Origin: a virus
Virus record (IMG/VR): IMGVR_UViG_3300030419_005040
Span: 1 to 22,349 of that record
Length of the DNA stretch: 22,349 nt
Reading direction: 5' to 3' (one strand)
The position numbers and the translations under genes were made by a program. Each line of letters begins with the position of its first letter. Position 1 is the first letter of the stretch. Below the pieces are notes generated by a model that was not told the DNA's origin, did no database searches, and saw nothing but the letters and a program-made list of their open reading frames with translations. Below, piece after piece: positions 1 through 22,349 of this stretch.

Positions 1-686
1 CCCATTGCTTTGCCCGGTTCATTCTCATCAAGTGTTACTAACCCTATCGTGCTACATAAATGATTAAACAAATCACCTGGATTATAATTATTTGTCATTC
101 TATATAAACAATCATTTTGCATGTAAAAATAATCAAGAACATTGTTTATTTGATTTTTATTTTTACAGGTTTCAATTAATTTTAATAATTTATTTTTATT
201 TTTAAAATCATTGTATAAAGCACTAAATCTAGAATTGTTATAACTTTTATATTTTGCTTTTACTTGCATGTTATTTATATAATAGATGCTGTCACTTTCT
301 CTAAAAGACTTTTCTAATTGTCTTAAAATAGCGCCACCCCCATCTATAACAACTGCCATTGCTTCATTAAAAGAGGAAACATGAAATGCAGCGCACGCAT
401 GATATATGTGATGCATATATTCATTAAATACAAAATTTTTAATTTTGTATTTTTTGCAAATATTTTCTATAACTTTTTCATGGTCATCCTCCAACCTACC
501 ACAACAAGCAAACACAAAAGTATCATCAAAATTTTTTACATGTTTTAATGAAAGATAATCAAAGTCATTAGCAGAAGGACCCCAAAACTTTTTTTTATTA
601 AAACGACTTTCTTCAAAAAATTCAATACTGTTTTTTTTCTTAATACAAATTGAAGAGTCGTGTGATATATTTACACCGACTGTCAA
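1..686 (-). CDS. Carbamoyltransferase, NodU/CmcH/TobZ family (N-terminal part, cut by window edge)
   Basis: Reading leftward from a probable TTG at 686, an open frame of about 228 codons runs off the left edge without a stop. The N-terminus reads GVNISHDSSIC (residues 4-14), followed by EESRF (25-29), the metal-site motif HHIYHA (92-97) and VVIDGGG (112-118), ending in GKAMG. These are the signatures, in the right order, of the N-terminal domain of O-carbamoyltransferases, which move carbamoyl from carbamoyl phosphate to sugar or antibiotic hydroxyls. The nucleotide-binding C-terminal part is outside the window. It is the last visible gene of the leftward tail/modification block and starts 3 nt after the preceding stop. 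No ATG exists near the conserved start, so TTG is the best start, with a weak ribosome site. The likely acceptor is a glycan made by the neighbouring glycosyltransferases, which is inference. Confidence 0.82.
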   Translation of the reverse strand, partial: MTVGVNISHDSSICIKKKNSIEFFEESRFNKKKFWGPSANDFDYLSLKHVKNFDDTFVFACCGRLEDDHEKVIENICKKYKIKNFVFNEYMHHIYHACAAFHVSSFNEAMAVVIDGGGAILRQLEKSFRESDSIYYINNMQVKAKYKSYNNSRFSALYNDFKNKNKLLKLIETCKNKNQINNVLDYFYMQNDCLYRMTNNYNPGDLFNHLCSTIGLVTLDENEPGKAM

Positions 687-688
687 AA

Positions 689-943
689 CTATTCTTTTGG
701 TGTTTGACCTAACATATCTTTTAATGACGGAGCAAATACTTTAACATCTCTTCTAATTTTTTCAGCAGTTGTTGAAGTGTTTGGATCATCTATATCAGCT
801 TGCATAGCTTCTTCTGATTCATATTCCTGACCAGTGTCCATATTAGTTAACGTGGTTTCAGTTTTAACTTTATATCTAGGAATTGTTCTTCCGTCTTCTA
901 AAGTTATTGTTCCTATTTGTTCTGCGGGTTCAATTATCGGCAT
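689..943 (-). CDS. Small acidic hypothetical protein, 84 aa
   Basis: This 84-residue gene starts 14 nt inside the end of the preceding oxygenase gene and has a good ribosome site (TGGAGAG about 6 nt before the ATG). The protein is acidic and hydrophilic, with a beta-strand-like N-terminal half (around IGTITLEDGRTIPRYKV) followed by an Asp/Glu-rich stretch and a charged helix. I see no signal peptide, membrane segment, Cys cluster or catalytic motif, and I do not recognise a family. The tight packing, ribosome site and protein-like composition support a real gene. Its place between an oxygenase and a carbamoyltransferase suggests expression with the modification enzymes; its role is unknown. 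Confidence 0.7.
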   Translation of the reverse strand: MPIIEPAEQIGTITLEDGRTIPRYKVKTETTLTNMDTGQEYESEEAMQADIDDPNTSTTAEKIRRDVKVFAPSLKDMLGQTPKE

Positions 944-1520
944 TTTCTCTCCAATTTATGTTAAAACTTAAAATAACTCTATCTTCATTAGAACTATTTA
1001 TTTTAACTTCATGTTGTAACCATGATGGGAAAAAAATCAATGAATTTTCCTTTGGTTCGAAATCTACGCTATGTGCGATATGCACAGAGGCGTTTTTCTT
1101 CTTTGGGGGTGATAATACCTCAGCCTGTGGTTTAGGCTCTAGAAACACTAAATTACCGCTTTTTTGAGGCACTTTTAGATAGTACACTCCAGACAAGTAA
1201 TTGTAAGGATGTGTGTGGACATTATTTCTAGATCCTGGAGGATTAATCATGCCCCACAAACCTGTCATTTCTGGAACGTATTTATCTTGCACATCTAAAT
1301 GGTTAAAGCACTCTTTAGCTTTTAATAATATATCACCTACTGTGCTTTTAAATTCTTCATCTTTGTAAAGCTCATCGTCACTGTGCCAGCCTCCAACATT
1401 AGATCTTGGCATACCTTTTTCATCTCGTGCTTTTATTTCGTAAAGTCTATCTATTAAGTGACCGTGACCCTTAACCTCTGTCATCATGACAGGTGTAATA
1501 AATAGTGATTGTAAATTCAT
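930..1520 (-). CDS. Putative 2-oxoglutarate/Fe(II)-dependent oxygenase (TIGR02466-like), 196 aa
   Basis: The C-terminal half matches the double-stranded beta-helix oxygenase pattern of the TIGR02466 type. NNVHTHPYNYLSGVYYLKVP (99-118) supplies H102 and H104 as probable iron ligands. FFPSWLQHEV (163-172) supplies the distal ligand H170. R181 in NEDRVILSFNINW is the expected 2-oxoglutarate-binding arginine. Such enzymes hydroxylate protein, sugar or small-molecule substrates using O2 and 2-oxoglutarate; the substrate cannot be read from sequence. The gene starts 11 nt after the upstream stop, with a strong AAGGAG ribosome site in that gap. It is one of five predicted oxygenases in this block and most resembles the 230 aa one at 7996-8688, so the two may be old paralogues. 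Confidence 0.8.
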   Translation of the reverse strand: MNLQSLFITPVMMTEVKGHGHLIDRLYEIKARDEKGMPRSNVGGWHSDDELYKDEEFKSTVGDILLKAKECFNHLDVQDKYVPEMTGLWGMINPPGSRNNVHTHPYNYLSGVYYLKVPQKSGNLVFLEPKPQAEVLSPPKKKNASVHIAHSVDFEPKENSLIFFPSWLQHEVKINSSNEDRVILSFNINWRENADN

Positions 1521-1531
1521 TCTTTTTCTCC

Positions 1532-1894
1532 TTACAGTTGACCTTTTGTAACCTCCATAAAACTTACAATAATGTGAACTTGGTTAGCAGCATTAGCCTG
1601 TGCTTTTAATACGTCAGATTCTTGTAAAACTAAAGGCTGAGATAATAATTCTGTTGTTGTATTTGTTGCAACACTTTTAGCCTTAAATAATTCAAAAGTA
1701 GCAGAAGATCTAAGCACCTCTAAGTCCACAAGTGTAGTGTTTCCTGAGTCATTACAAATTAAAATAGATTTAATTACGTCAGTTGTAGGAGGCACAGGTG
1801 GTGTAGCACCAGGGTCAGCTGTTGGCACCGTTAATATGGTTGTTAAATCTGTTGATGTTATATCAACCATTGAGCTTTTAAATGTATTAGCCAA
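1532..1894 (-). CDS. Small virion-type structural protein, 120 aa, TTG start
   Basis: The protein opens with MANTFKSSMVDI and continues as Thr/Val/Ala-rich beta strands with a Pro-rich turn (TADPGATPPVPPTT). It has a core like IKSILICNDSGN...VDLEVLRSS and ends with DVLKAQANAANQVHIIVSFMEV. This is the look of small beta-sandwich proteins common beside tail genes in marine phages; I infer a virion role but cannot name it. The start is TTG at 1894-1892, preceded by AGGAGA with 9 nt spacing, inside the end of the 55 aa gene. The MANTF beginning is typical of this kind of protein and supports TTG over the internal ATG at 1870. Confidence 0.7.
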   Translation of the reverse strand: MANTFKSSMVDITSTDLTTILTVPTADPGATPPVPPTTDVIKSILICNDSGNTTLVDLEVLRSSATFELFKAKSVATNTTTELLSQPLVLQESDVLKAQANAANQVHIIVSFMEVTKGQL

Positions 1895-2054
1895 GGAAAA
1901 ATGTCTCCTGTTCTTGTTCTTCTTTTAAATCTTGTTGATAGTTAGTGTTTAATAAAAGTATTATTTGATCTAATAATTTTATCATTTGGTCAAATTGACT
2001 AGCATCATATTCTGGCGTAGCGTTTGGTAATCTAGTTATTGTTATTTTTGCCAT
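1887..2054 (-). CDS. Small hypothetical phage protein, 55 aa
   Basis: A complete ATG-to-TAA frame of 55 codons fills the space between the 150 aa oxygenase and the 120 aa structural protein. It begins MAKITITRLPNATPEYDAS and ends in an acidic segment (DLKEEQEQETFFLG). The middle (QFDQMIKLLDQIILLLNTNY) forms a clear amphipathic helix, so an oligomerising or scaffold-like helical protein is plausible. It overlaps the upstream gene by 23 nt and the downstream TTG start by 8 nt, the packing seen elsewhere in this block. The downstream gene's ribosome site lies inside its last codons, suggesting coupled translation. I have the impression that similar short proteins occur next to tail genes of marine phages, but no function is known to me. 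Confidence 0.75.
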   Translation of the reverse strand: MAKITITRLPNATPEYDASQFDQMIKLLDQIILLLNTNYQQDLKEEQEQETFFLG

Positions 2055-2484
2055 TTGTGTACCATATTAATATAACTTTTCTCACTCCTTTTATCACATT
2101 TAACACTCCATGTCTTAATTTTTGTCCATCAAAATAGTAAGTTCTGCCCACTAAAGGATCTATTGTAACTCCTTCTACTACCCCTTGTCCACCCTGAAAA
2201 TCGTCATTTATAAAGGTTACAGAGGTGCCAGTTGTTTCTTCTCTTGTAGCATCTTTGTGAAAGTGCATTGCACTATCTTTTGAATAAGTTGTAATATTAC
2301 AATATTCCACATTTGTAAATTTTGTATCGTCTATAAGACTAGCTATTTTTTGTACAATGTTATGTTCAGAAGATAGCTCACGAACAAGGCCTTCTCCCCA
2401 CTCTCTATGATGAGGATGAGTTAGTAATGTATTTAATTGTTGTATTTCTTTTTCTTCAAGACAATCGTCTTTAATATAAATCAT
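2032..2484 (-). CDS. Putative 2OG-Fe(II) oxygenase, prolyl-4-hydroxylase-like, 150 aa
   Basis: This is a compact single-domain oxygenase. Numbering from the ATG at 2484, the segment MHFHKDATREET holds the HxD pair H76/D78. GQKLRHGV supplies the distal H125, and R135 in GVRKVILIWY is in place for 2-oxoglutarate. GGQGVVEG before the distal half is typical of P4Hc-type domains (GGELxF-like). An upstream in-frame TTG at 2532 would overlap the tail gene by 52 nt, so I prefer the ATG that overlaps the tail gene stop as ATGA. The AGGAG next to that ATG is too close to act on it, which points to coupled re-initiation. Lying directly after the tail gene, it may act on a virion protein; this is inference. 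Confidence 0.78.
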   Translation of the reverse strand: MIYIKDDCLEEKEIQQLNTLLTHPHHREWGEGLVRELSSEHNIVQKIASLIDDTKFTNVEYCNITTYSKDSAMHFHKDATREETTGTSVTFINDDFQGGQGVVEGVTIDPLVGRTYYFDGQKLRHGVLNVIKGVRKVILIWYTNGKNNNN

Positions 2485-4337
2485 CTCCTGCCATCTGGTC
2501 TTATCTGTAGTTTTTGAGAACCAAGTCTCCAAGGTGTATCATCAACAGTGTTTGTTTGATATTTTATTTTTACCGCTCTACCTCTACCTCTAACATTAAT
2601 TTTTTCAGTAGTATTAGTAATGTTTCCTGAAGTCGTTACATTTGCAGATGACTGTGGGTATTGTTCTAAAGTTAAAGTAGCTGTCATCGTATTTGTTAAA
2701 TTGTCAAAGTCTGGTACTAATTTACTTACAGACATTAATTGATCACCGTCTGCTATCTCTACAGATCCAGTTTCTAAAAAGGCAGTTATTGCTGAGCCAT
2801 CTGCTTGATTGTTACCTACTTCGTGTTCATAAACAAAAGAAGCCCCTGCAGTTAAACCTAGAATAGATGTGGCGTTAGCAGTAGTAGATGTGCTGTATTC
2901 TGTGGCTATAGGTAATTCATAAACATATGCTCCAAGCCAAGTCGTTCTAGCTAAAGAATTAGTATACCAAGTTCCTTCTAAATAATTATAAGCAACAGAC
3001 CTATCTATTTGTGTGGCGTTTGCTGATGGGTAATACCAAATAATTTCATTATATGCAGTGTTTAGACCGACGGCTATATCATTTTTATTTGTATAACTAA
3101 TGTCATCAAATACAAAGTCTTGAACAGAACATGGCATTTTTTTAACAACCCCATCGTACAAATAAAATGCGTTATCAGACATCCAATATGCTTTACCATT
3201 TACCTCTATAGCTGCGTGTTGTGCTATTAAACCCGCATTTGCCCCAAGTTGACGAAGACCAAAAGTAAAAGGTGTGCCAACAAATTGTAAACCATGTAAG
3301 GATGTGTCAGTCCAAATTAAGATCTGACCTGTTGATTTTACTGCACCTATTATTCTTGACCCATCCGATATACGTAGAGACCCTGCCTCGTTAGTTGAAA
3401 CAGGTGTGTAATCAGTTGCATCTTCTCTATCCGAAAATCTAAGCAGTAAATCATCTTGAGTAGCAGTGTTTCCAATTGTTGTTTCTGTTCCAAATATTAA
3501 TAAGTGTCTTGTGTCTGTTGACACCAAACTAAATCTTGATGCTGTGGGTGCATTTGACAGAGCGGTGGCTCTTGCACCTAAACCCCCTGAAGTGTCCCAA
3601 ATAAATGTGCCACCATTTAAAACTGTTGCAATTAAGTCTTCACCAAAATTATCTAAAGACCAGTTTCTTGCAGCAACAACAACGTTGGAAGAAGATCTTG
3701 GTGTGTCCCATGTGCTAGCTCCCCATGTCTCGGTGCCCCAACCATATCCGTATGTTGAAGATGTTGGACCAGGATTTATTTGATATGTAGCTGTAACAGA
3801 TCCGCCTCCACCCGAGGTCGAGCCTGTTGCATTTGTGCCAGCGTTAATTGTAAAACTATTTGCATCTGGCACAGTAAGTATTTCAAATTCATTATTAAAA
3901 TCTATGCCATCAACTACATTTGAGGAAGACCCGTCGTCAAAAGTAACGAATGCGCCAACCTCTGCATTGTGTCCAGTGTCTGCAACAGTAACAGTTGATT
4001 GTCCACTTTGCGTGGTAAAAGGATTTGTAAGTGCTTGTGTTTCTCTTAATGGTGTAATATCATAGACTTTACCTTCAGAAAAAATATATAGTTTTCTATC
4101 TGTACCTAATGCTAAATACCTTGTTCCATCTAAGCCAATCCAAGAATGTGTATCTCTTACAGCACCGACTACGGTTACATTAGGATTTGGTAAAAATCTC
4201 CAACCTCCCCACCTTTCTGGTTTACCATAGTGAAAGCGCACAAAATCTGAATCTATGTATTTACGCTGATCTCCTGCTGAATAAGCAGAATCCTGTTTAT
4301 CTATACCTGGTTTAAATTTTAAGTCTACTAGTCGCAT
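2481..4337 (-). CDS. Podovirus tail protein, resembling P22 gp10-type stabilisation proteins, 618 aa
   Basis: The N-terminus carries the pattern DSDFVRFHYGKPERWGGW, typical of phage tail proteins related to the P22 gp10 packaged-DNA stabilisation family, which plug or extend the tail below the portal. The rest is beta-rich, with recurrent short blocks such as GTRYLALGTDRKLYIF and NGKAYWMSDNAFYLYDG, suggesting propeller-like repeats. An Ig-like or beta-sandwich insertion lies roughly at residues 100-190 (from TNPFTTQSGQSTVTVADTGH) and ends in a Gly/Ser linker (GSTSGGGG). The ATG at 4337 is preferred over an in-frame TTG at 4346, because it overlaps the preceding stop by only 10 nt. It is the only clearly virion-structural large gene in the leftward block and is flanked on both sides by oxygenases. 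Confidence 0.72.
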   Translation of the reverse strand: MRLVDLKFKPGIDKQDSAYSAGDQRKYIDSDFVRFHYGKPERWGGWRFLPNPNVTVVGAVRDTHSWIGLDGTRYLALGTDRKLYIFSEGKVYDITPLRETQALTNPFTTQSGQSTVTVADTGHNAEVGAFVTFDDGSSSNVVDGIDFNNEFEILTVPDANSFTINAGTNATGSTSGGGGSVTATYQINPGPTSSTYGYGWGTETWGASTWDTPRSSSNVVVAARNWSLDNFGEDLIATVLNGGTFIWDTSGGLGARATALSNAPTASRFSLVSTDTRHLLIFGTETTIGNTATQDDLLLRFSDREDATDYTPVSTNEAGSLRISDGSRIIGAVKSTGQILIWTDTSLHGLQFVGTPFTFGLRQLGANAGLIAQHAAIEVNGKAYWMSDNAFYLYDGVVKKMPCSVQDFVFDDISYTNKNDIAVGLNTAYNEIIWYYPSANATQIDRSVAYNYLEGTWYTNSLARTTWLGAYVYELPIATEYSTSTTANATSILGLTAGASFVYEHEVGNNQADGSAITAFLETGSVEIADGDQLMSVSKLVPDFDNLTNTMTATLTLEQYPQSSANVTTSGNITNTTEKINVRGRGRAVKIKYQTNTVDDTPWRLGSQKLQIRPDGRR

Positions 4338-4954
4338 TTGGTCCAATATTGTATACTAAATCTTTGTTGAGGAAAAGGGACATCCTTGCCATTTTTTGAT
4401 TTAATTATCTTTATTGAGTGACTTATGTAGCTTGGAAAAACAACCATATAATTGTTCATATTAGGTATTTCTATAATTTTGCCGTCGTCCATAAAAAGCA
4501 TATCTCCTCCCTCTAAATTGTCTCCTTCGTTTAAAACTAAATTAAAAGTGAAAAAAGGGAGATTATCCATATGCCAGCCATAATAACCCCCGTGATTATA
4601 GGCGCACACGTGAATATCATGCTTTTTTGTTTTCATTTCCAAAAATTTAAAGACACTGTTACGATCTGTTTCTGCTATAAAATTTTCTAATCCTCTGTGG
4701 TAAAACCAATCACCTAATTTAGTGATATTTGGTGTTTCAGCAGGAAACTCATTATGGTCTATCCAATAATCAAAAGAACCACAGTTCTCGCTGTAAAACT
4801 GTAGTTGACTTACCTTATCATCTTTATCACCCCAACTGGGCACAGAAAATTTAGTTCTACTGTTTAAAAGATCTATTTTAATATTTTGTAGTATTAAAGG
4901 TGGTAAAAAATTATGACAACCAATAATATTTTTTGAGATCCAATGATATTTCAT
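4328..4954 (-). CDS. Putative 2OG-Fe(II) oxygenase, prolyl/lysyl hydroxylase-like, 208 aa
   Basis: The catalytic half reads AYNHGGYYGWHMDN (118-131), giving H128/D130 as the HxD iron ligands. It is followed by a strand-rich segment LVLNEGDNLEGGDMLFM (139-155), where EGGD-F is typical of P4Hc domains. VVFPSYISHSIKII (171-184) contains the distal H179, and R198 in QQRFSIQYW is the expected 2-oxoglutarate ligand. The N-terminal 110 residues are a helical extension. The gene overlaps the glycosyltransferase upstream by ATGA and the tail gene downstream by 10 nt. Sandwiched between a glycosyltransferase and a tail protein, it is the best candidate here for a hydroxylase that prepares a protein or sugar for glycosylation, though that link is inference. 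Confidence 0.8.
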   Translation of the reverse strand: MKYHWISKNIIGCHNFLPPLILQNIKIDLLNSRTKFSVPSWGDKDDKVSQLQFYSENCGSFDYWIDHNEFPAETPNITKLGDWFYHRGLENFIAETDRNSVFKFLEMKTKKHDIHVCAYNHGGYYGWHMDNLPFFTFNLVLNEGDNLEGGDMLFMDDGKIIEIPNMNNYMVVFPSYISHSIKIIKSKNGKDVPFPQQRFSIQYWTKCD

Positions 4955-5718
4955 TTTACTTTAAATTGTGTTGAAACATTGCCTTTAAAAGAATAATTAC
5001 CATAATGGGTCAAGCCACTAGATATATCAGCGTAAATCTTTCCTCCTATATTCTGCCACAATCTGCAGAAAGCGTAATCTTCAGACAAATATCTATCATT
5101 GTCAATCATTGTATCAAAAAAAGCATAATTCCAATCTGAGGTTTTGTGATAATTAAATTCTTTATCGTGAGAGCTGCCAATGTGCTGGTCAGGAGTAAAT
5201 TTTAGTTTTGGATAATTATCTGCCATTTTTTGAAATACGGATCTTTTAATTAACATAAACCCAGTTGCTCCGTCCATGACTTGTACAAAACCATTTTTTG
5301 TTTCAATGTGATTAGGATCTTTAAAGTTCAGGTTATATTCTAAAGATGTTGCCATTAGCTCATTTTCTTCAATCTTAGGATTATCTTTTATTTTTTTTAT
5401 AACTTTAGTCCAGTTAATAGTTTTTCTAGGATATATACCACAAACCACATCTTCGTTTAGTTCCAGCATTCTAAAAACAGATTCAGGATTAAAAGCGATG
5501 TCTGCATCAATAAACAGCAAATGTGTATAGTCACCATCCATAAAGAGCTGTACTAAAGTATTGCGTGCTCTTGTAATCAATGATTCATTACCAATAGTTC
5601 CAAACTGTAATTCTATTTTTTTGATTGCTGCTAAAGCTGTTAACTGTAAACAACTTTTAAAGTAATCCGCTGTAATCATGCCCCCGTAACAAGGTGTGCC
5701 GATAAATATTTTAGTCAT
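4951..5718 (-). CDS. Glycosyltransferase, GT-A fold, family 2/Anp1-like, 255 aa
   Basis: The start MTKIFIGTPCYGG fits the nucleotide-binding first strand of a GT-A enzyme. Residues 66-74 (HLLFIDADI) contain the DxD-type metal and nucleotide-sugar motif D71/D73. ATGFMLIKRSVF (151-162) and YLSEDYAFCRLW (210-221, E213/D214 as likely acidic catalytic residues) are the usual later motifs. The C-terminus has LTHYGNYSFKG (236-246), with a conserved-looking His. Similar single-domain transferases occur in marine phages and may glycosylate virion proteins or host surface sugars; donor and acceptor are unknown. It overlaps the upstream gene by 8 nt and the following oxygenase by ATGA, so all three are probably translated together. 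There is no signal peptide or membrane segment, so it acts in the cytosol. Confidence 0.82.
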   Translation of the reverse strand: MTKIFIGTPCYGGMITADYFKSCLQLTALAAIKKIELQFGTIGNESLITRARNTLVQLFMDGDYTHLLFIDADIAFNPESVFRMLELNEDVVCGIYPRKTINWTKVIKKIKDNPKIEENELMATSLEYNLNFKDPNHIETKNGFVQVMDGATGFMLIKRSVFQKMADNYPKLKFTPDQHIGSSHDKEFNYHKTSDWNYAFFDTMIDNDRYLSEDYAFCRLWQNIGGKIYADISSGLTHYGNYSFKGNVSTQFKVK

Positions 5719-6283
5719 TAATTATTATCTCCTTTGAAAAATGATTAACTAAATTTGGTTTGTAAAAATTAAATTTTTCACACTCTTTTGTATGTTTCAC
5801 AATATTTATTAAAGTTTCAAAAGCTGCTTCACTTAATATATTTGAATAATTAGGAGAGTTACAGACGAATACGTAATCAAATTTTTTAAATTTAACTTCA
5901 TTTATATCATAGGTTATTGTAACTAAATCATTATGATTATTTCTATCTGAGTCATAGTTTGCTAGCCAATATGCGCTGTTAATAAAATTTTTTTTATTTA
6001 AATAGTATCCAAGCCAGTTTCCTGAATTGTAAGAATTAATTGGAACTTGTTGGTACCAAATATCATGATGATGATCTATTGTAACTAAATCAATTAATTG
6101 TTTTCTTTTACAAAGAGGGTCAAGTGTGTAAAATATATTTGCATGTACTTGAGAAAAAACAATATTCTTAACATCTAAGTCATTTATATAATTAAGAAAA
6201 AATTTAATTATGTCGTTAAAATGTCTTGGAGATTGCACATAATCAGTGTCTATAGACAAAACATTTAGAGTGTTATCAGTCAT
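5711..6283 (-). CDS. Hypothetical protein with DxD and HHHD metal-type motifs, 190 aa
   Basis: No family is recognised with certainty. The first strand reads NVLSIDTDYV (7-16, D12/D14). A second strand ends in VFSQVHANI (42-50, H47), and a third in VTIDHHHDIWY (67-77), followed by NSGNWLGYYL (86-95). Acidic and His residues at the ends of successive hydrophobic strands resemble the metal site of the arginase/deacetylase (ureohydrolase) fold, including UPF0489-type proteins; this is a hypothesis from spacing only. It lies between the two glycosyltransferases with 8 nt overlaps on both sides, so a role in sugar or substrate modification is plausible, for example deacetylation. The length is short for a full arginase-like domain (about 250-300 aa), which weakens the idea. 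Confidence 0.7.
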   Translation of the reverse strand: MTDNTLNVLSIDTDYVQSPRHFNDIIKFFLNYINDLDVKNIVFSQVHANIFYTLDPLCKRKQLIDLVTIDHHHDIWYQQVPINSYNSGNWLGYYLNKKNFINSAYWLANYDSDRNNHNDLVTITYDINEVKFKKFDYVFVCNSPNYSNILSEAAFETLINIVKHTKECEKFNFYKPNLVNHFSKEIIIND

Positions 6284-7124
6284 TTAATTTAATACTAGCT
6301 TCAACTATTTTATCTGGGGAAATTTCTACACAATATGGATACTCAGAAATCATGTTTGTTAAATCAGGATACCCAAAAATTTCTGGTTTGGTTGTTCCCC
6401 ACAACACTAAACCTTTTTTATTGAAAGTTCTATTAGCGCACATGTGATGTAAGGCGCTATCAATGGCTATAAAAAAATCACAATATTTAGACAATATCAT
6501 AAAATCTTCTCTGTTTTTAAATAAAGGAGAGCCACCTTGATCATTAAATTTTGTTTCACCAATGTATTCTGATCTTTCATTATCATGACCAAACACAATA
6601 AAAATGTGTGTAGGATATTGCTCTTGCAACAAGTATATTAAATCTTGACCATATTTATAATTTCTTCCAAAATTGTTTTTGTCATAATGATTTGTCATGA
6701 CTCCTTGTCCACCTGTAAATTGTAATAAAACAAATTTATTTATTTTTTGTATGTGAGGCAATAATTCAACTTCTCTTTCAGTATTTATTGCAAAATTTGG
6801 TCTGTAGTTTTCTAATTCTATTTCATACATCTCAGCCCATTTTTTTAAAACATGTTTTTGTCCTTTTAAAAAATCACTTTTGTAAGGATCATAATGAAAA
6901 ATTTTGTCATAGTTTCTAAAATAATTGTAGTAAGTGTCAAAAATAATTTCATTTATCATTGTTCTTGAATCTGCAACATATGGTGAGTAAGTAAATATTT
7001 CTGGATAAGCAGAATTAATAACTAATTTTTGTTTGTTTTTTTCGTACAACTTGTCGATTAAAGCAGTAAACATTATGTGTTTACCAACCCCTCCATCTAA
7101 AACGTGTAAATCAGGCATCTTCAT
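6276..7124 (-). CDS. Glycosyltransferase, GT9-like (heptosyltransferase-like, GT-B fold), 282 aa
   Basis: The architecture is that of a small GT-B transferase. HVLDGGVGKHIMFTALI (7-23) resembles the glycine-rich N-terminal motif of GT9 enzymes. FVLLQFTGGQG (131-141) begins the C-terminal Rossmann domain. FIAIDSALHHMCA (218-230, with D222 and H226/H227) corresponds to the family's D-S-x-x-H-x-A donor site, and LVLWGTTKPEIFGY (239-252) matches the following strand and loop. GT9 enzymes typically transfer heptose or other sugars to LPS or oligosaccharides. At 282 aa it is somewhat short for the family (about 320-350). The gene overlaps the upstream 90 aa gene by ATGA. It may act with the GT-A enzyme at 4951-5718 in building one glycan. 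Confidence 0.72.
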   Translation of the reverse strand: MKMPDLHVLDGGVGKHIMFTALIDKLYEKNKQKLVINSAYPEIFTYSPYVADSRTMINEIIFDTYYNYFRNYDKIFHYDPYKSDFLKGQKHVLKKWAEMYEIELENYRPNFAINTEREVELLPHIQKINKFVLLQFTGGQGVMTNHYDKNNFGRNYKYGQDLIYLLQEQYPTHIFIVFGHDNERSEYIGETKFNDQGGSPLFKNREDFMILSKYCDFFIAIDSALHHMCANRTFNKKGLVLWGTTKPEIFGYPDLTNMISEYPYCVEISPDKIVEASIKLND

Positions 7125-7393
7125 TGTGTTGCATATTCTACTTGTAAATATTCTATTTTTCTTACCCAGCCTCTTGGTATAGCTATTGCTCCACCACCAT
7201 GGTCATCATCTTTGTCTACGCACCAAGATCGCATAATAACAATCTTGTCTTCATTGTTTACAACCATGTAACCAACTTCTTGGCACACGGCCAACGGCGC
7301 ATTAATTATATCTTTTATAGGAAGCCAACCGGTTTCCATATCACGAGCGTCAAGCCAAGTAATTCTTACCATGGGAACTTTTTTAATATTCAT
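7121..7393 (-). CDS. Conserved-type small phage protein, 90 aa, SH3-like composition
   Basis: The sequence is beta-rich, with tidy hydrophobic strands (MVRITWLDARDMETGW, VGYMVVNNEDKIVIMRSW) and a Gly-rich turn DDHGGGAIAIPRGW. It looks like a small barrel; I do not know its function. I recall near-identical short proteins from other marine phage sequences, so it is likely conserved. Two starts are possible: ATG at 7393 (overlapping the previous gene by 11 nt) or the internal ATG seven codons later, which begins MVRITW and may be closer to the usual start. Neither has a clear ribosome site. It separates the oxygenases at the head of the operon from the glycosyltransferases. Confidence 0.72.
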   Translation of the reverse strand: MNIKKVPMVRITWLDARDMETGWLPIKDIINAPLAVCQEVGYMVVNNEDKIVIMRSWCVDKDDDHGGGAIAIPRGWVRKIEYLQVEYATQ

Positions 7394-8012
7394 TTGCAGT
7401 TCTGCGATAATCTACTGAATAATTTATAGCTACAGTAATTCTAGTATTGTCTGTCATATTTGGTGTTACAGAGTGTAACAAATGCCCATCAAAAAAAATT
7501 ACAGTGCCATTTGTTGCTTTTAAACTTACAATATTACTATAATTTACATTTTGATCTGTTTTTTTGTGTAACACTAAATTTCTATTACCGTGAAAACAAA
7601 AAGATGCATTACTTGTTTCGACGTCTACAAATAAAACTGCTGATATATGTGCACTGTGGTGATGAGGAAAAGAATTGTGTCCCTTACCATACCAATTAAT
7701 CCAACAGTCATCGACTAAAAGACCTGGAACATCGTAGCCCTCTTCATCTACAAAATCTCGTATTTTATGAGAAATAATTTTGCAAACATTGTTTAATGCA
7801 GGATATCGTTGATGAGAGTTCCAACCAGTTCTGTTTTGTCTTTTTTTATTATCATCAATTGTGGTGTTAGCTGAGGTATCAACTCCATGAATTTTTTTAT
7901 TGTCTTCAACCAAAACTATTTGTTTTATCTGTTTTTCAATATTTTGAAAATCAGGTATTACAAAACTGTAAAAATCTTCAGTGAAGACTGTAGTTTTAAA
8001 TATTTTTGTCAT
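7383..8012 (-). CDS. Putative 2OG-Fe(II) oxygenase, TIGR02466-like, 209 aa
   Basis: Counting from the ATG at 8012, NSFPHHHSAHISAVLFVDVE (113-132) carries a run of three His (H117-H119) where the family has its H-x-H iron ligands. TVIFFDGHLLHSVTPN (170-185) has the distal H180. R191 in NTRITVAINYS is the 2-oxoglutarate arginine. CWINWYGKGH before the His cluster fits the family's usual strand. One extra in-frame codon upstream is TTG; the ATG beginning MTKIF is preferred and overlaps the previous gene's stop region by 17 nt. Together with the next gene upstream it forms a tandem pair of oxygenases at the head of the operon. Substrate unknown. Confidence 0.8.
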   Translation of the reverse strand: MTKIFKTTVFTEDFYSFVIPDFQNIEKQIKQIVLVEDNKKIHGVDTSANTTIDDNKKRQNRTGWNSHQRYPALNNVCKIISHKIRDFVDEEGYDVPGLLVDDCWINWYGKGHNSFPHHHSAHISAVLFVDVETSNASFCFHGNRNLVLHKKTDQNVNYSNIVSLKATNGTVIFFDGHLLHSVTPNMTDNTRITVAINYSVDYRRTANEY

Positions 8013-8688
8013 CAACGGTAAGTGTTGCGTCCTTTGGTACTAATCTTAAATTAAATGATACAGATCTTCTTTCTTCGTTTGGTGTTCTAAATGGATAAAC
8101 CATATGAGTCAACCAAGATGGAAACATAAATATGTCGCCCACTTCTGGTGGGTGTTGTAATTTGTGACCACTAAAAGTTTTAGGATCACCGCACATAAAA
8201 AGAATATCTCCTACACTAGGATAGTGATCTTCAGCCGCTCTCTCTTTTTCAATGCTGTCCGGCATTTTAGTATAGAATACACCAGATAAATCACCATCGT
8301 GCATGTGTGCAGGATTAAAGTCTCCTGACCATTGGCTCACGGCCCACATAGATTCTATAACCATCTTGTCAATTTTTTCTGGTGCTAATGTTTCGCTAGC
8401 TGGTGGTATAGATAAATAAGATTTAACCATTTCACCAATTAAAAAAACTAATTGTTGACCGTCACCATCTATCCACTCGGGTGGCAAACGAACTTCTTGT
8501 TTAACATTACCTGCTAAATTAGGAGACCAATCCCATTGTTTAGCTAATTTTGGGTCTCCAAGTATCTCATCACACTTTTTATTTACTATATTCAGAATAA
8601 AATCAGGCACTTTACCCTTAACCACAGTAGGGCCAAACGGTCTAATTGCATCAAACTTTAATTTAATTTCTTTTTTAACTTCCTCCAT
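7996..8688 (-). CDS. Putative 2OG-Fe(II) oxygenase, TIGR02466 type, 230 aa; first gene of leftward block
   Basis: This is the clearest TIGR02466-type oxygenase of the window. FNPAHMHDGDLSGVFYTKMP (124-143) holds H128/H130. VGDILFMCGDP (159-169) follows the usual GDLxFxDP pattern. VGDIFMFPSWLTHMVYPF (183-200) contains the distal H195. EERRSVSFNLRLVP (205-218) supplies the 2-oxoglutarate arginine (R207 or R208). The ATG at 8688 has a good ribosome site (GAGGTG about 6 nt upstream) and is the first gene after the divergent intergenic region, so it is expected to be the most strongly initiated gene of the leftward operon. Such proteins are common in marine phages, usually without a known substrate. 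Confidence 0.85.
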   Translation of the reverse strand: MEEVKKEIKLKFDAIRPFGPTVVKGKVPDFILNIVNKKCDEILGDPKLAKQWDWSPNLAGNVKQEVRLPPEWIDGDGQQLVFLIGEMVKSYLSIPPASETLAPEKIDKMVIESMWAVSQWSGDFNPAHMHDGDLSGVFYTKMPDSIEKERAAEDHYPSVGDILFMCGDPKTFSGHKLQHPPEVGDIFMFPSWLTHMVYPFRTPNEERRSVSFNLRLVPKDATLTVDDKNI

Positions 8689-8765: not shown

Positions 8766-8812
8766 CAAGGCCAGCCTCCTTGCACTAAAACAATCATGAT
8801 TTGCAGAAGGAG
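8766..8812 (+). promoter_or_regulatory. Leader with alternative pairings that could mask the ribosome site
   Basis: CAAGG (8766-8770) can pair with CCTTG (8778-8782) across a 7-nt loop. The overlapping CTCCTT (8776-8781) can instead pair with the Shine-Dalgarno AAGGAG (8807-8812) of the gene at 8816. The two pairings exclude each other, so the leader could switch between a free and a masked ribosome site. Both stems are short (5 and 6 bp), so a real effect is uncertain. Confidence 0.3.
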
Positions 8813-8815
8813 AGC

Positions 8816-9655
8816 ATGCTAAAAAAAATATTTAAAGCTGCAAAAAAAGCAGCCCCAATTATCGGTGCAGGACTAGGATTTCTAGCTGGTGGACCTGTAT
8901 TAGGATCTGCTATTGGTGGTGGTCTTGGTAGTTTAGTTGCAGGTAAAAGCCCTCAAGAGGCACTTAAATTTGCAGCATTATCTGGATTAGCAGGAGGAGC
9001 ATTAGGCAGATTTGGTGGATTACAAGGTGGACAAGGACTAGGGGGTTTATTTACCAAAGCCACGTCAACACCAGTGCCATCTAACATTATTCAAGCAGCT
9101 CAGGGTGGTAATAAAGTTTTACTTCGAGATGCAATCATGAAAGGGGCGGTTCAAGAACCTGGCGTGCTAGGATCAATAGTTAATTTTGCAAAAGCTAATC
9201 CTATAAAAACAGCACTTGGCTTGTCAGCGTTAGCAGGAGCTGCAGGTGGTTTAGGTGAAGAAGAAAATAGAAGATCACAGTTTGAAGATGTATACGGAAC
9301 AATGGACCCACTTAAAGATTTAGATGACGCTGGCGTAGGTGGTGTAACAACAGTGCCATTTTCTCAATACGGACCTAATTTATTAAACAGAGCCATGGGT
9401 GGAGAAATAAATGGATTAAAAGAAGCCGGATTAAAAGATGGTGGTTTCCCACGTAAAAATGGTAAGATAGCAGGACCGGGAACAGAAACAAGTGATGACA
9501 TACCAGCAATGTTAAGTGATGGTGAATTTGTTATTAATGCAAAAACTGTAAGAGGACTTGGACGAGCTATGGGTGGTGAAGGAACAAAAGAGAGTAGAGA
9601 CAGAGGATCAAAATTCTTATATAGTTTACAAAGAAAATATGGAGATAGAGCATAA
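8816..9655 (+). CDS. Membrane-active glycine-zipper virion protein, 279 aa
   Basis: The start at 8816 is set by AAGGAG four bases upstream; an in-frame TTG at 8801 would include that site and is rejected. Residues 1-20 form a cationic amphipathic helix (LKKIFKAAKKAAPIIGAGLG) like those of membrane-active peptides. It is followed by a glycine-zipper region with two or three hydrophobic stretches (about 14-42, 53-66, 132-146). The C-terminal part has the segment TETSDDIPAMLSDGEFVINA (223-242), a motif I recall from many phage structural proteins, then a basic tail. I infer an ejected or tail-associated protein that helps DNA cross the host membrane; it is the first gene of the rightward block and is joined to the next by TAATG. 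Confidence 0.68.
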   Translation: MLKKIFKAAKKAAPIIGAGLGFLAGGPVLGSAIGGGLGSLVAGKSPQEALKFAALSGLAGGALGRFGGLQGGQGLGGLFTKATSTPVPSNIIQAAQGGNKVLLRDAIMKGAVQEPGVLGSIVNFAKANPIKTALGLSALAGAAGGLGEEENRRSQFEDVYGTMDPLKDLDDAGVGGVTTVPFSQYGPNLLNRAMGGEINGLKEAGLKDGGFPRKNGKIAGPGTETSDDIPAMLSDGEFVINAKTVRGLGRAMGGEGTKESRDRGSKFLYSLQRKYGDRA

Positions 9656-10683
9656 TGGTTGATGAAGTAATACAACGAACGCAACAAGCTCCTTTTATTG
9701 AAAGAAGAGCAGAGCAGTTACTCGCGTCTGTATTTGGTGATCCAAACGCAGTAAGAAGAGAGGGTGAAAGCGATGCTGATTTTAATCTACGTAAGTTTGG
9801 TCGAGCAGGTATTGCTCAAAATATTCCAGCATTTCAGTTTGCAGGTTTTACACCTGAACAAACAAGAGCTTTTGGATTAGCAAGTCAAAACGTCGGGGCT
9901 TTTCAACCTGCTTTACAACAAGCAGGAGGCACTCTAGGTCTTGCAGGTGCTGCTTTAACAGGAGCAGGGCAACAGGCTCTCGGTGCAACGCAAGCATTTG
10001 ATCCAACACAATCACAACGTTTCATGGACCCGTACCAACAAAACGTTACACAACAAGCTTTAGCAGAATTTGATCGTCAAGCTCAAATTGCACAGTCTAA
10101 TTTAGCAACGCAAGCACAAAGAGCAGGAGCTTTTGGTGGCTCACGTTTTGGTGTGCAAGAAGCAGAACTAGGTCGTAATTTACAGGACATAAAATCAAGA
10201 AGAATATTTGAAGACTTATCACGAAATTTTCAACAAGCACAACGTGCTGCAATGGGTGCACAAGAAGCACAACAAAGAAGGCAGTTGGCTGCAGCACAGC
10301 AATTAGGTGCCACAGGTCAAGGTCTTGCTAGTCTTGGACAAAGACAAGCTGGTCTTGGTGCTCTCACTCAACAACTAGGACAGGCAGATGTACAATCTCT
10401 TCTAGGTGTTGGTGGTATTCAACAGCAATTAGGACAAGCTCAACTAGAAGCTCAAAGAAGACAACAACTAGAAGCTCAACAAGAGCCGTTTAGAAGACTA
10501 ACATTTGCTAGTGACATTTTACGAGGCACTCCAAGTAGTGCAATTCAGTTCACTCAACAGCCTTCTGTCAATCCATTTGCACAAGCTCTTGGTCTTGGTA
10601 TTGCTGGTATTGGTGCTCTTGGTCAGTTTGGTCAAGGCTTTGGAGGTATATCAGACGCTTTTAGTGCATTTGGAGGTAATTAA
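9655..10683 (+). CDS. Gln/Ala-rich coiled-coil internal virion or ejection protein, 342 aa
   Basis: The protein is strikingly rich in Gln, Ala and Gly, with long helices. The most characteristic stretch is around 123-175 (FMDPYQQNVTQQALAEFDRQ through SRFGVQEAELGRN), followed by heptad-like Gln-rich repeats to about residue 280 and a Gly/Phe-rich hydrophobic C-terminus (310-342). There is no enzyme motif. Similar proteins sit among the internal/ejection proteins of marine podovirus-like phages, the role I infer. It begins at a TAATG junction with the previous gene and ends in another TAATG with the next one, so translation of the three genes is coupled. A 15-bp direct repeat lies near 10441-10479. 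Confidence 0.65.
   Translation: MVDEVIQRTQQAPFIERRAEQLLASVFGDPNAVRREGESDADFNLRKFGRAGIAQNIPAFQFAGFTPEQTRAFGLASQNVGAFQPALQQAGGTLGLAGAALTGAGQQALGATQAFDPTQSQRFMDPYQQNVTQQALAEFDRQAQIAQSNLATQAQRAGAFGGSRFGVQEAELGRNLQDIKSRRIFEDLSRNFQQAQRAAMGAQEAQQRRQLAAAQQLGATGQGLASLGQRQAGLGALTQQLGQADVQSLLGVGGIQQQLGQAQLEAQRRQQLEAQQEPFRRLTFASDILRGTPSSAIQFTQQPSVNPFAQALGLGIAGIGALGQFGQGFGGISDAFSAFGGN
10441..10479 (+). repeat. 15-bp direct repeat inside the Gln-rich gene
   Basis: The 15-mer CAACTAGAAGCTCAA occurs at 10441-10455 and again at 10465-10479. It encodes QLEAQ twice, separated by RRQ, in one frame. It is exact at DNA level and probably a recent local duplication in a coiled-coil segment. Confidence 0.8.
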
Positions 10684-11795
10684 TGGTTCTTCCAATAGTA
10701 GCAGGGATAGCAGGATTAGCCCTAAGAGCTGCACCTTACGCAATAAGAGGCGCTAGAGCCGTTGTTAATCCAAGAAATTTAAAAAACTATTTTACAGGGG
10801 CTAGATCTAGACCGATTCAAGGACCTGTAAACGTTAGAGGTTTTAGATTTGACCCATCCAAAAAAGGCATAGAGGCTCTTGGAATGGGGGGAGGAAGAAC
10901 GCCAGGAATATTTAGACCTACTTTTAGAAACATAGCAGGACAGTCTGCTGTTTTAGGTGGAGCTGGTTTAGCCTATGACGCCTTAACAGATAGTGCTGAA
11001 CAAAGCACTGAACCACCACCAGCAGGATCAGGTGGTCCAGTAGAACCACAACCGGGTGGACCTGCAGGAATGACGATAGGAGAAGCTGAAAAAGCGGGCA
11101 TTATAAAAGATGAAAAACAAAAAGCAACTGACACCGCAGCAGATGCAACAGGTAAAAATATTCAAGGTGGTGATTTAGATGATTTCATAAAAGAACGTAT
11201 AGACTTGTTTGAAAAATATATTGGTGATGACACAAGAAAGAAAACAAAGAGTGCAGGATACAATGCCATGATACAGTTTGGTTTAGAACTAGCTACAAAG
11301 AGAGGTAATTTAGTAGAAGCTATTGCAGAATCTGCAAAAGAACCTTTGAAAGAATTTGCTAAACTAGGTAATCAATTAGCAGATAGAGCTGCAGCCATTA
11401 AGAAAGCTGGTATTGAGTCAGGTGTTGAAGCATTTGAATCTGCAGAGGATAGAAAATTAGAAGAAAAGAAAATTGCAGGTGATATTGCAGAAGCACAAAT
11501 AAGATCTCAAGCACAAAAACTAACACCGGGTGAGTTTATAACTAATCAGATTCAACAAATTATAGCTGATCCCAATCTTGTAGCAAGTATTACAGCTTCA
11601 AACTATGACGAAAACAATAAAAAAATTAATCCTAATATTTCTGATGAATCACTAATACAAGCTTATGCAGCTAATCAGTACGAGTATTACAATGCTAAAG
11701 AAATACCGGACACTGCAGACGGAAAAGAATTATATGAATCCTTACCTTCAGGGACAATGGTTTACTTTAAGGGACAAATATTTCCAAAACCATAA
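10683..11795 (+). CDS. Probable internal virion/ejection protein, 370 aa
   Basis: The N-terminus (MVLPIVAGIAGLALRAAPYA) is a hydrophobic, slightly basic helix that could insert in a membrane. A second hydrophobic stretch lies near 85-100 (IAGQSAVLGGAGLAYDAL), and a Pro/Gly-rich linker follows (about 110-130). The remainder is charged and helical, with a long stretch from about 160 to 280 (DDFIKERIDLFEKYIGDD onward) likely to be coiled coil. No catalytic motif is seen and I recognise no named family. Its place between the Gln-rich protein and the 1381 aa protein, with TAATG before it and a 9-nt gap with an AAGGAGAG ribosome site after it, suggests a component of the ejection apparatus. Confidence 0.62.
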   Translation: MVLPIVAGIAGLALRAAPYAIRGARAVVNPRNLKNYFTGARSRPIQGPVNVRGFRFDPSKKGIEALGMGGGRTPGIFRPTFRNIAGQSAVLGGAGLAYDALTDSAEQSTEPPPAGSGGPVEPQPGGPAGMTIGEAEKAGIIKDEKQKATDTAADATGKNIQGGDLDDFIKERIDLFEKYIGDDTRKKTKSAGYNAMIQFGLELATKRGNLVEAIAESAKEPLKEFAKLGNQLADRAAAIKKAGIESGVEAFESAEDRKLEEKKIAGDIAEAQIRSQAQKLTPGEFITNQIQQIIADPNLVASITASNYDENNKKINPNISDESLIQAYAANQYEYYNAKEIPDTADGKELYESLPSGTMVYFKGQIFPKP

Positions 11796-21760: not shown

Positions 21761-21899
21761 CTTGTATCATCATTAAATTTAATTTTATCATCTTCAAATC
21801 ATTAACTAACATTCTCTTTGTTAACTTTGCTGATTTGTTTTCTGCTTTAGATACTAGTTGTGCAGCTATACCCAAAGTTTCTTTAATTAGTTTTTCCAT
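21726..21899 (-). CDS. Small helical protein, 57 aa
   Basis: A complete 57-codon frame (MEKLIKETLGIAAQLVSKAE...) links the methyltransferase locus to the helicase gene. Its ATG overlaps a TAA stop of the upstream frame (TAATG), and its last 35 nt overlap the start of the helicase gene. The product is basic, Leu/Lys/Met-rich and predicted helical, possibly coiled coil, with no recognised motif. The TAATG junction and correct strand support translation; the overlap with the helicase start is longer than other overlaps here, so it could also be a leader peptide that couples helicase translation. Confidence 0.65.
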   Translation of the reverse strand: MEKLIKETLGIAAQLVSKAENKSAKLTKRMLVNDLKMIKLNLMMIQDDITRQPKQKD

Positions 21900-22349
21900 T
21901 ATAATTTTTTACCTCTCTGTCTTAACCCTTCTTCTATCATAACTTCCTCCGATAAAATTTTTCCACCTTTACCATTTGGTCTACTGCCTGGATTACTCGC
22001 TCTTGGTGTTGGCCATAACTTCCAAGATGGTCTTACCGATGTAGTAGGGGATTTGTGGGACGAGACTGTTTCCGAGACATTTAAGTCTGTCCACCCTTTT
22101 GGGTATCCCATGAGCCACTCTACCCACGTCGGGTTCAAACTCCCACCAGCGTGACCAGCTAGTCTTCCTTTCTTCTTGGCTTTTTCGTAATTCGTATTCG
22201 CTCCCGTATCTTTGTGATCCCTTGCTGTTGGTGTTGGCATCATTGCCACTTTCTCCTCCAACTTCCCTCTCTGTGTTCCTCTGTTCCGTATGTTCTCTGT
22301 CTTTTCTGCCATAGCTGCTGATGCTCTCGGAGTTGGCCACAGTCTTGAC
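21899..22349 (-). CDS. WPTP-repeat, methyltransferase-associated C-terminal frame (frame B, partial)
   Basis: This frame is open to the right edge, ends at 21899 and is joined to the 57 aa gene by TAATG. It contains three copies of a WPTP-type motif (LWPTPRAS next to the edge, MMPTPTARD, and LWPTPRAS again near the end). Between them lies LNPTWVEWLMGYPKGWTDL, which resembles motif IX (LxGFPxxWT) of C5-cytosine methyltransferases and of the Dcm-like C-termini often annotated in phages. The TAATG junction favours real translation of this frame, at least in part. The same DNA is also open in another frame on the same strand (21993-22349), which carries motif X. Whether the product is one frameshifted protein, two proteins, or one plus a shadow cannot be settled without the upstream part. 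Confidence 0.5.
   Translation of the reverse strand, partial: SRLWPTPRASAAMAEKTENIRNRGTQRGKLEEKVAMMPTPTARDHKDTGANTNYEKAKKKGRLAGHAGGSLNPTWVEWLMGYPKGWTDLNVSETVSSHKSPTTSVRPSWKLWPTPRASNPGSRPNGKGGKILSEEVMIEEGLRQRGKKL
21993..22349 (-). CDS. C5-cytosine DNA methyltransferase C-terminus (frame A, partial)
   Basis: This frame is open to the right edge and ends at 21993. Its C-terminal part EPDVGRVAHGIPKRVDRLKC continues into LGNSLVPQIPYYIGKTILE, the motif X region (GN-x-V-P) of phage Dcm-type methyltransferases, which methylate cytosine in DNA and help phages evade restriction. Upstream the frame is hydrophilic and variable (VANSES, DANTNSKG), as in the linker regions of such enzymes; the catalytic PCQ and ENV motifs would lie beyond the window. 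It overlaps the WPTP-repeat frame on the same strand for its whole length. The motif X match favours this frame, while the downstream TAATG junction favours the other. Confidence 0.55.
   Translation of the reverse strand, partial: VKTVANSESISSYGRKDREHTEQRNTEREVGGESGNDANTNSKGSQRYGSEYELRKSQEERKTSWSRWWEFEPDVGRVAHGIPKRVDRLKCLGNSLVPQIPYYIGKTILEVMANTKSE
22097..22103 (-). other. Candidate -1 frameshift heptamer C CCA AAA
   Basis: In the frame of the WPTP-repeat ORF (frame B) the reverse strand reads TAC CCA AAA GGG, so CCCAAAA is phased exactly as X XXY YYZ. A -1 slip here moves reading into frame A (CCC AAA AGG GTG). It would join EWLMGYPK to RVDRLKCLGNSLVP, placing motif IX and motif X in one protein. 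C CCA AAA is not among the strongest slippery sites, and no downstream structure was modelled. Confidence 0.3.

Follow-up and report, generated by a model that had tools for sequence, protein, structure and literature searches.

The 22,349-nt stretch analyzed here (the window) comprises positions 1 to 22,349 of IMG/VR virus record IMGVR_UViG_3300030419_005040, a 27.5-kb fragment, and carries on its minus strand a dense run of genes for 2-oxoglutarate (2OG)-dependent Fe(II) oxygenases. Comparison with related contigs indicated that this run is very probably a hypervariable island among the late (virion) genes, in which slots are filled by different, non-orthologous oxygenases. Divergent ejection genes flank the island on one side and a convergent tail-collar/fiber module on the other; the window holds most of it, but not all.

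The initial annotation of the window had proposed five oxygenases of two subtypes from their motifs, and profile searches upheld it. In a hidden Markov model search all five open reading frames (ORFs; W1 to W5 in Table 1) exceeded the curated Pfam cut-off, which is 27 bits for both PF13759 (reached by three ORFs) and PF13640 (reached by two), and by this measure all five belong to the 2OG-Fe(II) oxygenase superfamily. The motif sets were intact in each: W2 and W3 have H-x-D, a distal His and Arg, fitting the H-x-D/E...H pattern of a 2-His-1-carboxylate site, and W1, W4 and W5 have the H-x-H that is typical of PF13759, again with the distal His and Arg. At the profile level there was no sign of two or more members lacking the fold. 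Where TIGR02466 had been suggested for the H-x-H subtype, W1 and W4 bore it out but W5 did not, its score of 50.9 lying under the cut-off of 62.5. Among solved structures, W1 found relatives in 3bvc and 2rg4, with which its H-x-H, distal His and Arg align; W4 matched 3bvc (E = 4e-6) and W5 matched 2rg4 (E = 4e-5). Both structures are of uncharacterized TIGR02466/PF13759 proteins, which unlike the island enzymes are bacterial and encoded by single genes. Searched against the PDB, the family profile of W2 matched prolyl hydroxylases (E = 2e-4), protein prolyl hydroxylases being the closest, and its invariant residues are H92, D94, H141 and R151; a longer ORF with a TTG start reaches base 2532, and relatives begin at M17 (base 2484). 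In W3 the invariant residues are H128, D130, H179 and R198, and the assignment comes from Pfam and PHROGs, its PDB match being non-significant. The initial count of five oxygenases in under 8 kb was right for the window but too low for the island, because the window edge cuts it. Contig G001, assigned to the population of the window by an identical virion protein (100%) and matching offsets, has three more past that edge, for a total of eight in 12 kb.

We compared gene orders, slots and accessory content across 37 related IMG/VR contigs, each of which held multiple oxygenases in a Pfam search. With the contigs' own ORFs as the source of profiles, 16 connected oxygenase clusters emerged, to which we added three families that we read as sharing the same chemistry, namely c43 (HRD...H...R), c30 (PF08007 JmjC, 33.5 bits) and c25, giving 19 clusters including the JmjC type. 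The 21 closed islands, those with both ends present, contained a median of 7 oxygenases (range 3-11) from the connected clusters and up to 12 with the added families. A single island sometimes held several members of one cluster. These counts are approximate, since ORFs were called mechanically and the contigs include some near-duplicates and many fragments; some of the low ones stem from runs interrupted by an opposite-strand ORF. Three core oxygenases (W5, W1 and one more), virion genes and a glycosyltransferase (GT)-like gene made up a fixed skeleton, which recurred across the 37 contigs in the order c1(W5)-[slot]-c7-[slot]-c5(GT-like)-[slot]-c4(virion)-[slot]-c6-c2(W1)-c8-[slot]-c1'-c11-[slot], followed by convergent tail collar/fiber genes (PF07484 Collar, 81 bits; tail PHROGs). 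Among the slot genes, 172/215 (80%) were of 2OG type, and the others were mostly a GT9-like gene, a carbamoyltransferase, c38 and a gene of the tryptophan-halogenase family, which is defined by the PF04820 match of G028 (341 bits). The 21 closed islands showed 19 distinct gene orders. Between pairs of phages the median identity of the virion protein was 92%, whereas 18% of accessory oxygenases were shared when a counterpart was defined by at least 70% identity, and the two measures were uncorrelated (rho 0.07). Turnover was thus faster in the slots than in the backbone. With just three core oxygenases per island and the others exchanged between close relatives, the islands argue against a fixed version of the dedicated multi-step pathway that had been proposed at the outset. 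A linear pathway is disfavored because most members are optional; a set of interchangeable modifications, made in parallel to a substrate on the virion or the host surface, is the better fit.

Judged by motif conservation, the oxygenases look active. The metal triad was intact in 278/279 oxygenase copies and the 2OG-binding Arg/Lys was present in 276/279, figures that flatter somewhat, the motif columns having been picked cluster by cluster for the highest score; clusters of very low overall identity retained the catalytic motifs nonetheless. According to their ratios of nonsynonymous to synonymous substitution (dN/dS), the core genes W5 (0.078) and W1 (0.087) are under purifying selection, near the value of the virion gene (0.046); in the divergent accessory clusters this ratio is affected by saturation. 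Clusters c1 (W5) and c2 (W1) were found in 38 and 40 records, and c15 (W4), c23 (W2) and c26 (W3) in 17, 9 and 8. In about half of the copies (143/279; clusters c1, c2, c15, c22 and c35) H-x-H replaces H-x-D, and the sequences and their alignment to 3bvc and 2rg4 point to a possible natural three-histidine iron site.

By sequence comparison, the lineage is one of uncultured marine phages distantly related to HTVC023P-type pelagiphages, its virion protein being 41-43% identical to those of HTVC023P and HTVC027P and 46% identical to that of DSL-LC04. HTVC023P, HTVC027P and 023Pt_psg01, whose genomes are complete, keep the 2OG genes that we detected in a stretch of ~5 kb adjoining the homologous virion gene and tail genes. 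HTVC027P has three oxygenases (gp72-74), and its transcriptome paper mentions one (PMC12753301). Eight non-orthologous 2OG families, often near each other but not adjacent, have been described in HTVC023P-type phages (PMC9599517). These phages (HTVC023P gp65, gp66 and gp71; HTVC027P gp72-74) share with the present lineage homologous oxygenases and a homologous virion gene, clustering near tail genes and several non-orthologous types. Beyond the low identity of the virion protein, the island here differs in having typically ~7 and up to 11-12 oxygenases per 8-12 kb, often adjacent and in fixed slots of the virion operon, and in drawing on 19 clusters with a JmjC type among them.

T4-like cyanophages offer a second comparison, with 24 oxygenases in S-SCSM1 (PMC9602691), ten in S-CREM1 (PMC9964418) and nine in S-SZBM1 (PMC9146016), and with 2OG oxygenases in about 20 places in P-SSM2. 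The statement of the initial annotation that one or two such genes per marine phage are common therefore does not describe marine T4-like phages, which often carry many more, and oxygenase-rich phages are a known kind, given S-SCSM1 and the HTVC023P-type phages. The cyanophages carry the same PF13759/PF13640 families at low mutual identity. In S-CREM1 eight oxygenases stand in tandem together with a JmjC gene, and S-RIM44 has a similar cluster, also with a JmjC gene and with two Trp halogenases, after its tail-fiber and fiber-assembly genes. Their genomes are, however, ~3-4 times larger, the genes are often scattered, and a conserved slot skeleton has not been reported. The concern that related phages might routinely carry as many oxygenases scattered among unrelated genes was thus partly borne out, in marine T4-like phages. 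Metaviromic islands of marine phages (PMC3909814) are likewise variable and hold tail-fiber and Fe(II)-oxygenase genes, but they are defined by read recruitment and are not dominated by oxygenases. New here are the slot architecture, the density and the content turnover in this lineage, for which priority is not established; a search of the open-access literature found no description of the slot architecture.

It is quite possible, though somewhat short of probable, that the island serves to decorate the virion. The oxygenases would be produced together with virion proteins, and their targets for hydroxylation would be exposed residues or else glycans on the tail/neck apparatus; the GT and the carbamoyltransferase would add groups to some of those hydroxyls. 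Slot turnover would alter the particle's surface chemistry and so its adsorption or recognition, with the host-phage arms race as the selective force. We infer late expression from position and gene overlap; the substrate would be macromolecular. The minus-strand run extends from 8688 to the left edge of the window with neighbors overlapping by ~4-17 nt, consistent with the single operon that had been proposed, and the oxygenases share this putative late structural operon with sugar-tailoring genes (the GT-like genes and the carbamoyltransferase) and, in some relatives, with a tryptophan halogenase as an indole-tailoring enzyme. What had been called a tail gene is the virion structural protein of the skeleton, c4, a homologue of a 'stabilization protein'. 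Fe(II)-dependent oxygenase genes also recur in metaviromic islands next to receptor-binding genes (PMC3909814), which we count in favor of virion decoration, together with the closeness of the W2 profile to protein prolyl hydroxylases, the position of the pelagiphage 2OG genes near tail genes and the S-RIM44 cluster behind fiber genes.

Several points weigh against it. The substrate, activity and expression of the island enzymes are all inferred, and the call of the second glycosyltransferase, c18, is a weak one. Homologues in P-SSM2, S-SCSM1 and ACG-2014d also occur among replication or head genes; since some cyanophage homologues lie among replication genes, the link to tails is not general. 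Oxygenase complement and tail-fiber similarity showed no correlation or a slightly negative one, with a rho of -0.26 (for pairs that are not independent), which weighs against the simplest tail-fiber tailoring and leaves neck proteins, glycans and the host surface. A search of the lineage for a collagen-like Gly-X-Y repeat substrate found none, with glycine-rich stretches only, in HTVC023P and DSL-LC04. We also sought hints in the literature of 2OG proteins packaged into virions and found none; the virion proteome of S-SCSM1 names no 2OG protein, and 13 of its detected proteins are without known function (PMC9602691). We hold it unlikely that virion decoration takes the form of cassette-based combinatorial tailoring, in which fixed slots, shuffled oxygenases (half of them possible three-histidine enzymes), a halogenase and glycosyl-/carbamoyl-transferases would give each strain its own particle decoration.

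The 2OG hydroxylases, GTs, carbamoyltransferase and halogenase could instead act on the host, remodeling its surface late in infection (lipopolysaccharide, other glycans or lipids) so that altered receptors block superinfection or progeny re-adsorption. Carbamoyltransferase and GT-like genes occur in the same island, the 2OG hydroxylases LpxO and KdoO act on lipopolysaccharide, fast turnover fits surface arms races, and pelagiphages carry further glycan genes. However, the genes are intermixed with those for virion structural proteins and do not make up a glycan operon, neither flippase genes nor genes for nucleotide-sugar synthesis were found in the island, and some islands (G011, G037) hold only oxygenases and the core GT, all of which makes host-surface remodeling a rather doubtful explanation. 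An auxiliary metabolic role, in which the oxygenases would act independently to consume 2OG and O2 or to oxidize small metabolites such as osmolytes and peptides, has been proposed for cyanophages (PMC3037559, PMC9602691), and host iron-transport genes rise during HTVC027P infection (PMC12753301). One or two enzymes would be enough to draw down 2OG, and such a role, which we judge decidedly unlikely here, leaves unexplained the clustering in a late virion operon, the non-orthologous diversity in shared slots and the co-location with GT and carbamoyltransferase genes.

A role in nucleic-acid modification or repair, either AlkB-like or as TET-GT-carbamoyltransferase hypermodification of phage DNA, is very unlikely. 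The genome does encode a cytosine-C5 methyltransferase (window 21899-22349 and L087) in addition to the GT-like genes and the carbamoyltransferase, and DNA repair has been proposed for cyanophage homologues (PMC9146016). But the AlkB-type profile PF13532 was not reached (W2 only, 21.4 against a cut-off of 31.2), nor was the Tet_JBP profile PF12851 (W4 only, 13.4 against 34.9), the methyltransferase lies ~13 kb off in the replication region, and several different oxygenases for one base would not be expected. Least of all do we credit a selfish or neutral hotspot collecting oxygenase paralogues without joint function, which high turnover and the occasional multiple members of one cluster per island would suit, but which the intact triads, a core dN/dS of ~0.08 and the predominance of one superfamily among slot genes, not expected of random gene capture, disfavor.

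Of the 'auxiliary' genes in abundant marine phages that still lack an explanation, few are as common as those for Fe(II)/2OG oxygenases, for which competing accounts (2OG metabolism, DNA repair, host recognition) have so far stood without test. The present lineage links a dense, swappable oxygenase set, with core copies W1 and W5 under purifying selection, to the virion operon, and its culturable relatives HTVC023P and HTVC027P make the virion-modification hypothesis testable by mass spectrometry.

One oxygenase family bears directly on published ecology. A phage 'ferrochelatase' (phrog_2954) has been described as a partner of 2OG oxygenases (PMC9599517, PMC11561400). Its members here, including HTVC023P gp67, form cluster c25 and are neighbors of oxygenases. 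The cluster has no ferrochelatase match in Pfam or NCBIfam and keeps H91-x-D93, H142 and R144 without exception. Its predicted structure (predicted local distance difference test, pLDDT, 89) gave 2OG dioxygenases in all 50 PDB matches listed; a bacterial prolyl hydroxylase and PiuC-like enzymes lead (E ~1e-6, probability 1.00), and the best among the matches listed is 4j25 (E = 6e-7). The absence of a profile match together with the predicted 2OG-dioxygenase fold ruled against a ferrochelatase. GenBank labels for the family conflict, reading 2OG in S-CREM1 and the original S-SCSM1 record and ferrochelatase in RefSeq. The reported co-occurrence of oxygenases and 'ferrochelatase' is probably that of one oxygenase family beside another, and c25 as a predicted 2OG oxygenase changes the reading of both ecological claims (PMC9599517, PMC11561400).

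Other labels raise similar doubts. A further group, phrog_3531, looks like a fusion of the c25-type family with a second 2OG domain. The PHROG label 'DNA endonuclease V' (phrog_274) appears to cover 2OG oxygenases (S-RIM44 L118:8247-10205; L124:6316-6798), the S-RIM44 protein scoring 30.9 bits against PF13640 with no EndoV profile match, and phrog_2297 'DNA endonuclease' and phrog_1644 'minor coat protein' perhaps do so as well.

Table 1. Features of the oxygenase island and its surroundings; positions are those of the window unless a locus is named.
Feature	Position	Strand	Evidence
NolO/NodU-like carbamoyltransferase, N-terminal part, cut by window edge	3..686	-	phrog_1601 53.8 bits
Skeleton c8, 84 aa	689..943	-	34 records
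W1, core 2OG-Fe(II) oxygenase, cluster c2, H-x-H	930..1520	-	PF13759 85.5 bits, TIGR02466 118.6 bits
Skeleton c6, phage protein	1532..1894	-	phrog_1276 29.2 bits; 40 records
W2, accessory 2OG-Fe(II) oxygenase, cluster c23, H-x-D, P4H-like	2032..2484	-	PF13640 30.2 bits
Virion structural (head-tail stabilization-like) protein, skeleton c4	2481..4346	-	phrog_3287 268.8 bits; 41 records
W3, accessory 2OG-Fe(II) oxygenase, cluster c26, H-x-D	4328..4954	-	PF13640 32.1 bits
GT2-like glycosyltransferase, skeleton c5, DxD motif retained	4951..5718	-	phrog_1574 152.7 bits, phrog_34859 glycosyltransferase; 40 records
Accessory gene c38	5711..6283	-	no family match
Accessory c18, possible GT9-like glycosyltransferase (weak)	6276..7124	-	PF01075 11.5 bits, cut-off 22
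Skeleton c7, 90 aa	7121..7393	-	phrog_25889 35.5 bits; 36 records
W4, accessory 2OG-Fe(II) oxygenase, cluster c15, H-x-H	7383..8012	-	PF13759 55.9 bits, TIGR02466 64.6 bits
W5, core 2OG-Fe(II) oxygenase, cluster c1, H-x-H, first gene of the island	7996..8688	-	PF13759 63.7 bits
Divergent internal-virion/ejection genes, island boundary on one side	8801..11795	+	phrog_4287 DNA ejection protein 36 bits
c25 / phrog_2954 members	L024:9579-10109, L095:12229-12828, L085:8295-8915 (HTVC023P gp67)		intact HxD...H, predicted fold

Among the remaining genes of the island, the two glycosyltransferases named initially kept that reading in part, as a GT2-like c5 and a faint GT9-like c18, both under their Pfam cut-offs (for c5, PF00535 at 21.6 bits against 23.3). 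No relative of solved structure was found for c5, and c18 occurs in 14 records, always inside the island. The accessory gene c38 had been suspected of being arginase/deacetylase-like from a DHHHD motif, but its model (pLDDT 70) gave no significant fold match. Past the carbamoyltransferase cut by the window edge, the continuation is found at L088:12125-16173. The NolO-like carbamoyltransferase consists of two overlapping ORFs in different frames at L088:12125-13625, L100:11078-12578, L008:5237-6716, L105:11393-12876 and L010:2778-4270, and of a single ORF (~487 aa) in L063 and L071. The cytosine-C5 methyltransferase (window 21899-22349 and L087:1900-2745) is represented by its C-terminal part, with conserved C-terminal motifs readable in two overlapping frames (WLMGYPKGWTDL, GRVAHGIPKRVDRLKCLGN), and is followed by a short run of Ns at the window end. 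A gene that clusters with tryptophan halogenase is located inside the island between c6 and c2 at L015:6979-8094 and L066:9903-11018, and a full Trp halogenase (PF04820, 341 bits) stands beside the tail module at L091:17412-18956. Short JmjC_2-domain proteins (PF08007) occupy island slots at L100:5551-6060 and in seven relatives. Finally, the DUF6065/phrog_7084 protein c11 (L091:9240-9926; 24 records) repeatedly accompanies 2OG clusters in phages that are unrelated, S-RIM44 (L118:6949-7656) among them, and its C-terminal half resembles, by eye, a dUTPase-like motif pattern.

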